64,000 nucleotides of DNA, from the NCBI GenBank assembly GCA_018292915.2, contig JACVVK020000197.1:522001-586000 (forward strand). Direction: 5' to 3'. Under the pieces are notes generated by a model that saw nothing but the letters and a program-made list of their open reading frames with translations, had not been told where the DNA came from and searched no databases. The stretch's first letter is position 1. The number at the start of each line of letters is the position of its first letter. The DNA is from Batillaria attramentaria (Eukaryota > Mollusca > Gastropoda > Batillariidae). Both the position numbers and the translations under genes were made by a program. Positions 7,803 through 13,800 of the stretch are shown in pieces.

Positions 7803-10800
7803 ATGGCGACATCATCTGATGTCCGGGATATTTTGGAACTTGAGGGAAAGAGTGCAGAGCCAGAGTTTGTCACTAAGGAGTCTTTGATGAACGATGGCAA
7901 AAAGGTACATGGTCACATCTATTATTTCCTATTCCATGGACTTTGTTTTCAGTGTACAAAGAAAAAACAAGCTGTGTTAAACGAGAAGGTACAGGCTGGT
8001 CCTGGCAGTTTACTGCACTCAACAGCGAGTGAATTAGGCTTTTTAACTTTATCACTAAGAGTCATGTTTATAGTTTTGGCTTGAAATAGCTTTTTTTTTT
8101 TTTAATTTTAGGCTTGTGCATGTAGTTACTGTGCAAAAAAAAGTCCAGCTGCATAGCTGTTTCTTTTATCTTTTTTTTTCAGAAAAAAGTGAAAAAGCCG
8201 GATCATGTCACATTCAAACGCCCAGAAGGAATGCACCGGGAACTTTGGGGACTGCTGTGGACAGACAATAAGTATTTTTTTAATTCTACTTAGTCTTAAA
8301 AGTATATATGTAACATGCATAGGAAGTTATGTGGAAGTATTTTCCTTAAATCATCCATTCAGTGATTAATAAACAATGAGAAAATAACTTTAAAGAAAGT
8401 GATTCATGTAAGAATTAAAATGATAATAATTCTAAGTCTTTTGTTTAGGTCAGGTCTTGTGTGGGGTGTTGGGGGGGGGGGGTGTTGCTGTTGTTTGCTT
8501 TTTTTGTTGTTGTTGTTGTTAAAACTTTGATGTTCTAATGTCATTTGTATTTGTTTACATGCCAGAGACCCACCACCCATCTTCCCGTCAGATTCAAACC
8601 AGGGCTACAAACAACTGAAAGCCAAAATTGGCAGCAGTCGTGTACGGCCGTGGAAATGGATGCCCTTCACAAACCCTGCTAGAAAGGTGAGAAAAACATC
8701 CTGTCCATGAATTGGTCTGTGCCGGGTTCTTCACTCCTATCCATGTTAAAAGAGATTACTTGGTAAAGTATGCAATGAACACACGTTGGTTGCAGAATGT
8801 TTTATTTTTACTTAATTTTAGCTCTGTTTGTCTCATTAATCTGCTTTGGAAATGATCAGCCCACAAAATTTAAAAAAAAAAATGCAGTTCTAAATTTGGA
8901 AACTTAAAGTTAAATTGCTGAGCTGACCCTTCACACCACATGTTTCTAACGTGATCATGTCTAGTGTGTGAGAGAATTATGTGGTTCACGTGAGCGTGAG
9001 TATTGGGTTCAGCTCACAGCACTCTGAGCCCATTTTTTTTTTTAATTAGGTAAAGGGCCCATACAACTGACTTATTATTACTGTTATTATTATTATTATT
9101 AAACAGTGTACTGTTTGTGTCTCTTTGTAAGTGACAGTGCATGTTTGAGTCCAGAGATGATTTCCTGTTTTAGATTTTACTTTTTAAACAAACAATAAGG
9201 TACACATGTATTATGAATAAATTGAATTGATGACTCACCCATCCCTGTCACACTAATGGTGGTCTGTACCCTTTACTTTTTTTGTTTGTTTGTTTGTTTT
9301 GTTTGTTTGTTTTGGGTTTGTTTGGTTTTTTTTAGTAATTCCATCTTAGATGTTACAGCAGTGAAGGAGCTGTACCCATTGTATTTGTAGCCACAAGTTG
9401 AATCTGTTTGGTTGATGGTCTGTCCTGTAGATTTCTTTATCTTACGGATTGTTTTCTCTCTGTATCTGTTGCAGGATGGAGCAGTGTTTTACCACTGGAG
9501 GAAGGTGGCTGATGAGGGGAAAGATTATCCCTTCGCTCGCTTCAACAAGGTTTGTTTACACCTTTCTGTCATGAGTTCCTTGGTGAACATGCCAGTTGTA
9601 AAGAGAGAGGTGCAGTGTATGTTAAGTTGAATCACTCGGGCTTTGTCAGTGTCAGACCACAGGGTACATTACTGACTGTATCTGTTGCAGAATCTGATGT
9701 GTGTGTATGTGCCAGTTTTCAATCTTGTCAACTTTGTTTTCTAGATTTTTAGTTTATCCCTTTCTGCCCTGAAGGTATCTGAGTAGCGATAACGCTCTCT
9801 GTCTGGGAGTTTTTCAAGTGTGCTAAATCTAAAGCTGGGCTCTTGCATACAAAACCCTATTTCTCAAGAAGTATTGGATCCATCCTATAGGGGAATCTTC
9901 CACTTTGCAGAGCGTATGAGAGTCGGTCACATGCACGCATATTATTGTTAGGGTCTGCGAGACCGTAGGTGATACGGTGGCAGGGCTGAAAGTGTTAATA
10001 CATTCATTCATGGATGAGCTGCTTCAGCTGGGTTGTTGAATTCATTCAGATACATTCATAAAAGGTCATAAGGTTTATTTTTACAGTGGAAAATGTGCAT
10101 GTAGATTTCCGATACTAAATATATTTTTCTGCCATCGACAGACAATAAAGTTATATTGAATTGAATTGAATTGAATATATCTGAGACTTGTTCATAATTT
10201 CAGGATCTCTTTTTCTGAGTTTGATGATGATGACACGAGGTTAGTTTTAGTGTACATTGCACTGTCTTACACCTGGTGGTCTTTTCCTTGCTGACAGGTT
10301 GTTGATGTCCCAGTCTACTCCGATCTGGAGTACCAGCAGCACCTGCATGATGAGGGTTGGACGCGGCACGAGACGGATCACCTGTTTGATCTATGCAAGC
10401 GTTTTGACGTGCGCTTCATCATCGTGCACGACCGATGGGACAAGCAGCGTTTCCGGCAGCGCAGTGTGGAAGATCTGAAGGAACGTTACTACAGTATTTG
10501 TAATACTCTCACTAAGGTAAGGGGATATGGTTAGGTACTACAGTATTTGTAATACTCTCACTAAGGTAAGGGGCTATGGTTAGGTACTACAGTATTTGTA
10601 ATACTCTCACTAAGGTAAGGGGCTATGGTTAGGTACTACAGTACTTGTAATACTCTCACTAAGGTAAGCTGCTATGGTTAGGTACTACAGTATTTGTAAT
10701 ACTCTCACTAAGGTAAGGGGATATGGTTAGGTACTACAGTACTTGTAATACTCTCACTAAGGTAAGGGGCTATGGTTAGGTACTACAGTATTTGTAATAC

Positions 10801-13800
10801 TCTCACTAAGGTAAGGGGCTATGGTTAGGTACTACAGTATTTGTAATACTCTCACTAAGGTAAGGGGCTATGGTTAGGTACTACAGTATTTGTAATACTC
10901 TCACTAAGGTAAGCTGCTATGGTTAGGTACTACAGTATTTGTAATACTCTCACTAAGGTAAGGGGCTATGGTTAGGTACTACAGTATTTGTAATACTCTC
11001 ACTAAGGTAAGGGGCTATGGTTAGGTACTACAGTACTTGTAATACTCTCACTAAGGTAAGCTGCTATGGTTAGGTACTACAGTATTTGTAATACTCTCAC
11101 TAAGGTAAGGGGCTATGGTTAGGTACTACAGTATTTGTAATACTCTCACTAAGGTAAGGGGCTATGGTTAGGTACTACAGTACTTGTAATACTCTCACTA
11201 AGGTAAGGGGCTACGGTTAGGTACTACAGTACTTGTAATACTCTCACTAAGGTAAGGGGCTATGGTTAGGTACTACAGTATTTGTAATACTCTCACTAAG
11301 GTAAGGGGCTATGGTTAGGTACTACAGTATTTGTAATACTCTCACTAAGGTAAGGTGCTATGGTTAGGTACTACAGTATTTGTAATACTCTCACTAAGGT
11401 AAGCGGCTATGGTTAGGTACTACAGTATTTGTAATACTCTCACTAAGGTAAGGGGCTATGGTTAGGTACTACAGTATTTGTAATACTCTCACTAAGGTAA
11501 GCTGCTATGGTTAGGTACTACAGTATTTGTAATACTCTCACTAAGGTAAGGGGCTACGGTTAGGTACTACAGTATTTGTAATACTCTCACTAAGGTAAGG
11601 GGCTATGGTTAGGTACTACAGTATTTGTAATACTCTCACTAAGGTAAGGGGCTATGGTTAGGTACTACAGTATTTGTAATACTCTCACTAAGGTAAGGGG
11701 CTATGGTTAGGTACTACAGTATTTGTAATACTCTCACTAAGGTAAGCTGCTATGGTTAGGTACTACAGTATTTGTAATACTCTCACTAAGGTAAGGGGCT
11801 ATGGTTAGGTACTACAGTACTTGTAATACTCTCACTAAGGTAAGGGGCTATGGTTAGGTACTACAGTACTTGTAATACTCTCACTAAGGTAAGGGGCTAT
11901 GGTTAGGTACTACAGTACTTGTAATACTCTCACTAAGGTAAGGGGCTATGGTTAGGTACTACAGTACTTGTAATACTCTCACTAAGGTAAGGGGATATGG
12001 TTAGGTACTACAGTACTTGTAATACTCTCACTAAGGTAAGGGGCTATGGTTAGGTACTACAGTATTTGTAATACTCTCACTAAGGTAAGGGGATATGGTT
12101 AGGTACTACAGTACTTGTAATACTCTCACTAAGGTAAGGGGCTATGGTTAGGTACTACAGTATTTGTAATACTCTCACTAAGGTAAGGGGCTATGGTTAG
12201 GTACTACAGTATTTGTAATACTCTCACTAAGGTAAGGGGCTATGCTTGTGGAGATGTTTTTGTAGAGCTGTTGTAGTCTTTGGTGCCTTCGCAGTTTACT
12301 TCACACACACACACACACACACACACACACACACACACACACACACACACACACACACACACACACACTCACACACACACACACACACACACACACACAC
12401 ACACACACACACACACACACACACCTTCTCCTTACTTCTAGAACTTATTTTTACTAAGTACTTTTTTCTGTCCCAGGTCCGAGCTCCACAAGGGACAGAA
12501 CCCAAGATCAAAGCATTTGATGCCGAACATGAGCGACGTAGGAAAACACAGCTGGTAAAATTGTTCGAACGCACACAAGAACAGGTGAGTGTATATATAT
12601 TATGATTAATTGTCCTTGAGTGAGCAGTGCTGAAATGCTGCCATTTCAATTGAACATAGTCAACTCCTTTCAGGGAAGATTGGAAATTATATTAAAGTTT
12701 TTTAATGCGTTGTTTGCATGCGTTGATCAATATTCCTCCTTTGGCAGTGTGAAGAGGAAGAGTTTCTGATCGGCGAGCTGAAGAAGATTGAGCTGCGAAA
12801 GAAGGAACGGGAAAAGAAGACGCAGGACCTTCAGAAACTGATCACAGCGGCCGACAGTAATGTCGACGCCCGCAAGACGGAGCGCAAAGCAACCAAGAAG
12901 AAAGTCGCTCCACAGATGAAGTTCAAGGAAGGAGGGGTGGGTAAATGCAGTTCTCGCTGTTCACACTATGTCACTTGTCTGATGTGTTCTGTCACTGAGG
13001 ATCAAGCAAGATATGTGGCGCAGCTGCTTAAAACTGAAGGTATTTGTGTTATCCTCTTCTGTTCAGGGCTGTGCTTAGGTCAGGTATGCAAATATTTTAT
13101 GTTATTTTTGTTATTCTGTGCAGGCAACCCCAGAACCTGGAGGTATCAAATTCCCTGACTTCAAACAGTCCGGTGTCACACTACGCAGTCACAGGGTGAG
13201 TATGTCTTGGTCACAGCATAACTATATGCGCCAGAATAAATTATAATGCTTTTCATGTTTTTGTTGTTAACCTCTATGGAGCAGCTGATGCCTGGGACAC
13301 ATGCCTTTTTCTTTTGAATGTTTTCAGGATCTTTGAACTAGATGGTGGTGGTGGTTGCTAATAATAATATTCAGTTTTTCTCATTTCTTCCATTTCTTTT
13401 TGCCTGTGTACAGATGAAGTTGCCAGCTTCCATTGGCCAGAAGAAAATGAAGGCCATCGAACAGGTTCTGGATGAGCTTGGAATTGGTGAGTCCGGAACT
13501 TTCTGCTTAATTATCCCTTCCAGGAACATCAGTTTCTTCATACGGGGGAAAGCAAAGCACTGCTGCGGGATGTTACCCACCTAGTCTACATGCTCCATAA
13601 ACAAACATACTTGTATTTTGTTGTTTTCATTTCAGAGTTCAACCCCATGCCTACAGAGGAGATTGTGGCAAATTTCAACGAGCTGCGGCAGGACATTGTC
13701 TTGCTGTATGAGCTGAAACTGGCGCTGGCGTCATGCGAGTACGACCTTCAGATGCTACATCACCGGCATGACACGCTCAATCCGTCAAAGGTCAGTGTTG

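Follow-up and report, generated by a model that had tools for sequence, protein, structure and literature searches.

In a 64,000-nt window of the Batillaria attramentaria genome (the whole stretch analysed: contig JACVVK020000197.1, positions 522,001–586,000, forward strand), the boundary between exon 5 and intron 5 of the gene for DMAP1 is repeated in tandem as a minisatellite of 36 units of 49 bp (10487–12244, + strand; positions are those of the window). Each unit carries 30 nt of exon end followed by 19 nt of intron start, with the donor AAG|GTAAG at the junction between them. The array belongs to a known, if seldom described, kind of element, the ‘mirage’, and is notable for its copy number and for the recurrence of such arrays across genes of one genome. 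We consider it very probable that it is a minisatellite of the mirage kind which the gene tolerates through use of the outermost donor, with both the splicing and the copy number inferred from the genome sequence.

Anatomy of the DMAP1 array

Tandem Repeats Finder (TRF), run on the window, returned a tandem array at 10487–12244 with a period of 49, 35.9 copies and 97% matches. Slicing it at 49-base steps gave 36 units of 11 types, the final unit departing after base 43, and the two results together confirm a preliminary description that had reported 36 tandem 49-bp copies of a DMAP1 exon end with its 5′ splice site. A unit consists of TACTACAGTATTTGTAATACTCTCACTAAG or a one-base variant of it, which forms the exon part, and of the intron part that follows. 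The description was right about this exon-end content, although it put the length at about 31 coding bases where the exon part is 30 nt, or 10 codons; in unit 1 these encode YYSICNTLTK. Exact copies of the 30-nt exon part of unit 1 number 25 in the window, far above chance, with none on the opposite strand.

The sequence AAGGTAAG is present in 36/36 units, leaving AAG|GTAAG intact everywhere. The sixth donor base differs between units (GTAAGG in 30/36, GTAAGC in 6/36), so that the earlier description of perfect GTAAGG donors holds for 30/36; the 35 additional donors follow one another at 49-nt spacing (10566 ... 12232; feature 10566–12237, + strand). TACTAC is also found in 36/36 units, as had been noted, but none of our tests points to a branch-site role for it. 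Among units 1–35, 5/49 positions are variable and 44/49 invariant, and the near-identity of the units suggests expansion by unequal exchange or slippage. The intron part contains four of the five variable positions (P 0.067), a distribution that does not prove selection on the donor. Autocorrelation of the unit types (lags 1–11 against shuffles) detected no higher-order period, the lowest p being 0.15.

Intron 5 as a whole (10517–12476, 1960 nt) comprises 1,728 nt of array and, between the array and the acceptor, a CA dinucleotide tract of 123 nt (12302–12424, + strand; TRF). When the exon together with one unit was used as a DNA query, a single locus was found in the assembly of 715,342,989 bases, and this search, which skips very common words, recovered no haplotig or paralog with a different number of copies.

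The reading frame depends on the outermost donor

The DMAP1 gene model (7803–14843, + strand) has 12 coding exons, picked for an open frame and GT-AG ends; the last one (14781–14843) includes the stop codon (14841–14843), up to which the frame is uninterrupted. The translation matches human DMAP1 at E 3.7e-178, with no gap across the LTK|VRAP junction. Among the 120 listed of 787 relatives, the nearest named ones are Pomacea canaliculata (84%) and Littorina saxatilis (82%), and one 512-residue relative is 94% identical to the window's protein. The predicted gene is an intact caenogastropod DMAP1.

The unit starts inside exon 5 (10298–10516, + strand; 219 nt, phase 0 to phase 0), as earlier described, the final 30 nt of the exon being the exon part of unit 1. 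The frame resumes at exon 6 (12477–12584, + strand; acceptor TTCTGTCCCAG|GTCCGA). The outermost donor, GTAAGG at 10517–10522 (+ strand), is the sole donor that keeps the frame of DMAP1. Reading on past it gives VRGYG and then a stop that begins at intron base 16, and computed splicing from the donors after 1, 2, 3 or 35 extra units gave the same VRGYG and stop. Since this stop falls inside unit 1, every later donor should likewise lead to it, and the predicted DMAP1 protein is obtainable from the outermost donor only; the earlier statement that only the first donor keeps the frame thus held for all later donors tested. With a U1 duplex value of –10.0, the donor at 10517 is the third strongest of 26 donors (two are stronger).

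Relation to known boundary repeats

The term mirage denotes a minisatellite-like tandem duplication of an exon–intron boundary; the described cases come from amphioxus, in Adh3, globin genes and others (PMC3087553; PMC3902484). The amphioxus mirages in Adh3, BflGb6, BflGb9 and TnC are reported to be length-unstable and regularly spliced. The DMAP1 array has the architecture of a mirage: its tandem units run across an exon–intron boundary, as do those of a second array in a CCDC17-like gene (see below), and they are minisatellite-sized and near-identical within an otherwise intact gene. As in amphioxus, the exon end and the splice signal recur within the intron while the authentic exon is retained. 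Unlike the amphioxus cases, the array resides in a caenogastropod, its 49-bp unit sits at a 5′ splice site, and it has 36 donors where BflGb6 has 6 and 3 units in two haplotypes. No report of a mollusc mirage was found in the literature searched, which targeted gastropods in small part and left subscription journals mostly uncovered.

A human minisatellite with multiple splice donor sites, in IFI6 (6-16), was reportedly described by Turri in 1995. Use of two of its downstream repeat units is reported to give three mRNA species (PMC4526556). The DMAP1 array resembles this system in that repeat units at an exon end each carry a donor. It differs in that use of a downstream donor would truncate the protein, and the stop reached from the tested later donors speaks against a coding use of the IFI6 type.

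Boundary repeats have also been linked to intron gain: in potato RdRp an intron arose by tandem duplication of AGGT segments (PMC4974935), and in human duplicated genes tandem repeats at exon–intron boundaries can create new introns (PMC2812944). As in potato RdRp, the boundary duplication in DMAP1 multiplies splice signals, and each 49-nt unit formally reads as a GT...AG intron. Unlike there, an existing intron only grew, and no new intron was seen.

How the array could be tolerated

The array probably began when a short stretch lying across the exon 5/intron 5 boundary was by chance duplicated in tandem, which copied the exon end together with the donor; unequal exchange or slippage would later have expanded it to 36 units. 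Twenty minisatellites picked from the TRF rows (units of 17–62 bp, with 100% identity in several) account for 9.5% of the window, and in a genome so rich in minisatellites some are expected to land on splice sites. Such a duplication would do almost no harm, since in the first copy the real exon remains joined to a real donor and the rest is intronic.

Introns above approximately 250 nt are associated with exon definition (PMC9225289), and since exon 5 is flanked by introns of 748 and 1960 nt, exon definition is expected for it. Five minigenes with 365-nt flanking introns, in which donors of equal strength competed, spliced solely from the upstream site, and in human donor pairs of near-equal strength long introns favour the upstream site and short introns the downstream one (PMC9225289). 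The behaviour of the minigenes leads us to expect the outermost choice in DMAP1 as well. Under exon definition the acceptor preceding 10298 would be paired across exon 5 with the closest donor, which is the outermost, and the other 35 would be spliced out as intron. Occasional slips to later donors would produce stop-bearing mRNAs, expected targets of nonsense-mediated decay, an established pathway. The preliminary description had presented the gene as relying on the outermost of 36 equal donors; array anatomy and frame logic agree with this, and the strangeness it implied is softened by the existence of mirages elsewhere and by the expectation of upstream choice.

A second boundary array in a CCDC17-like gene

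On the opposite strand of the window, TRF identified an array of a 52-bp unit repeated 7.9 times with 100% identity (23547–23959, – strand). It contains 8 donors AGG|GTCAGT (GT at 23944, 23892 ... 23580) and repeats the last 15 nt of an exon together with the start of the following intron. This exon (23945–24064, – strand) ends LPDSVTFTR at the array, the next exon at 23334 (VAGRILD) keeps the frame, and proteins of relatives match both sides of the junction. The gene is labelled after relatives, some of which are named coiled-coil domain-containing protein 17; Pfam gave no match in five proteins, the CCDC17-like pieces and relatives included.

Two further features were noted in the same gene. 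A short 30-bp array (43903–43975) lies about 20 nt into a CCDC17-like intron, right after a donor GTAAGG. A 455-codon open frame within the gene span (40455–41822, – strand) is matched by several unnamed proteins among the top relatives (P0121 and others).

Boundary arrays elsewhere in the genome

The 715-Mb assembly was searched for three AGGTRAGT sites at steps of 30–60 bp. This donor-triplet pattern gave 615 matches versus 401 for the backward pattern, and the corresponding acceptor pattern (TTTNCAGG) gave 751 versus 747. The counts include overlapping matches within arrays and carry no P-value, so that 615 versus 401 only suggests an excess.

Among 100 listed places with the donor pattern, 26 arrays were counted, of which 20 were fetched. 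Three of these start at ends of exons matched by Pfam. The exons of L043 (CUB, 5.7e-8, residues 4–63 of 64) and L048 (NIT, 1e-8, residues 8–95 of 97) scored above the cut-offs; that of L042 taken alone matched FXa_inhibition (3.2e-7) and cEGF (1.3e-5), both below the cut-offs, and its downstream exon matched EGF_CA (1.6e-7). At L031 a DEAD-box helicase match (DBP2, 6.3e-7) covers the exons past the array; since it begins at the junction, an open frame is what backs the exon before the array.

For L035 (25.0) and L050 (18.6), and less strongly for L033 (10.4), codon usage and the acceptor score are the indications of coding, and L045 (–4.0) appeared coding-like by eye alone. The remaining coding scores were 16.8 for L043, 6.7 for L048, 6.6 for L046, 5.5 for L042 and 2.7 for L041, with negative values also at L047 (–4.7) and L032 (–8.2). 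Nine of the 20 arrays, L031 included, had no candidate exon. No exon support was found in the other 12 of the 20 arrays, the score of L046 lying barely above the 95th percentile of controls (5.9). These controls were 76 backward-motif sites, 63 of them without a candidate, with a maximum of 24.9 and 2 at ≥11. Twenty-four known exons scored from 17.1 to 46.9, but the same exons had trained the score, which is fragile.

The most donors were counted in L050 (25) and L042 (22). In L050 (G000:C126:570000-578700) a coding-like exon is followed by a 55-bp × 25 array; its first in-frame stop comes at intron base 223, so that splicing from the earliest of the later donors would not bring an immediate stop. 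In L042 (G000:C74:1739500-1748000) an EGF-type exon is followed by a 21-bp array, whose unit length is a multiple of three, yet an in-frame stop begins at intron base 6. In L043 (G000:C74:1891700-1900200) a very long PTS-repeat open frame precedes the CUB exon, which is followed by diverged 45-bp boundary repeats.

A duplication at the same boundary in Nucella lapillus

We compared the 120 listed relatives for insertions of at least 5 residues, the listing leaving aside smaller ones and deletions. Such an insertion at the exon 5 boundary is absent in 119/120; the exception is Nucella lapillus. Its DMAP1 (P0004) is annotated with a 19-residue tandem duplication, RSVEDLKERYYSVCNTLTK present twice, which ends exactly at the exon 5 boundary, the insertion point of the second copy being residue 183/184 in the window's protein. 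Beyond the boundary, 5-residue insertions occur in two relatives (P0100 after residue 207, P0066 after residue 215). The repeated block of Nucella is longer than the 30-nt exon part of the Batillaria unit, which makes a separate event probable. The duplication could be explained by recruitment of a copied exon end as an additional exon of 57 nt, or equally by an annotation error.

Arguments against tolerance and alternative explanations

Several observations weigh against simple tolerance of randomly placed repeats through the outermost donor. In human donor pairs whose strength was not equalised, preference went to the downstream donor in each of the four intron classes (PMC9225289). Moreover, without its 35 extra units intron 5 would measure 245 nt, and the CCDC17-like intron, reduced in the same way, 246 nt, both just below the 250-nt switch point. 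Intron definition, which operates below about 250 nt, favours the downstream donor (PMC9225289), so that splicing might have shifted to the downstream donor after the first duplication, and early tolerance is not self-evident. As a conjecture, growth of the array may have increased its own safety. Finally, a donor with its exon end falls in 2/13 of the minisatellites in gene spans versus 0.25 expected (P(≥2) = 0.024), in a post hoc, uncorrected test that covers two modelled gene spans, assumes uniform placement and includes 11/37 donors with approximate positions. Minisatellites may thus be attracted to donors to some degree.

Improbable, to our mind, is a role of the array as a tunable brake, in which spare donors would capture U1 or mis-splice to decayed mRNA and copy number would set the dose of DMAP1. 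The early stop reached from the tested later donors would suit such a brake, as would an in-frame stop inside the first unit in 7/10 such arrays examined. The retention of AAG|GTAAG in every donor points the same way, but it is weak evidence because most other positions of units 1–35 are equally invariant. Predicted accessibility is low at all 36 donors (0.001–0.042) and the first site, at 0.012, is not special. The amphioxus precedents report normal splicing, and the Nucella insertion is the only one of its size at this boundary among the listed relatives.

Recursive splice sites are AG|GT ratchet points, and in each DMAP1 unit AAG directly precedes GTAAG. Because every unit is bounded by AAG|GTAAG, any internal GT-AG splice would remove whole 49-nt units and restore the junction, and such GTi–AGj splices could in principle continue until one donor remains. 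The removal of the remaining donors at a later step, raised in the preliminary description, therefore works on paper, but the AGs within the unit are poor acceptors. They score ≤1.18, whereas 24/26 real acceptors score above 1.18 (two lower) and intronic AGs of DMAP1 reach 4.9 at their 90th percentile. The AAG|GTA site itself, where an acceptor would abut the donor, scores –2.2 or –3.4, below all 26 real acceptors and unlike a recursive splice site. A single unit is, in addition, merely 49 nt long. The CCDC17-like array has a better in-unit AG (4.61). Judged by these scores, recursive removal is unlikely, and we give a self-erasing array in DMAP1 very little credence.

An assembly artefact in the copy number or the entire array is also hard to credit: near-exact long tandem arrays do assemble poorly, and one amphioxus mirage was seemingly misassembled in its genome draft (PMC3087553), but the eleven unit types are intermixed with no higher-order period, the exon-plus-unit query finds one locus, and arrays of the same kind are present on other contigs.

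Implications

The preferred reading, a mirage tolerated through its outermost donor, bears on the choice among equal 5′ splice sites, a basic problem for which two-site minigenes are the usual experimental system. A gene with 36 donors, along with further arrays that differ in length, intron size and donor strength, would make a rule of cross-exon proximity testable at scale, and mirages would extend from amphioxus to molluscs. A wider proposal, that donor arrays (3 to 36 identical, competing donors) exist at 5′ splice sites in hundreds of genes and that the DMAP1 boundary was independently hit in Nucella with recruitment of a 57-nt in-frame exon, which would be an exon gained from a mirage, is tentative and on balance doubtful. 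The Nucella case would test the suggestion that boundary repeats seed new exons and introns.

Elsewhere in the window, a long open frame at 501–1655 (+ strand) resembles, by eye, a reverse transcriptase of the non-long terminal repeat type.

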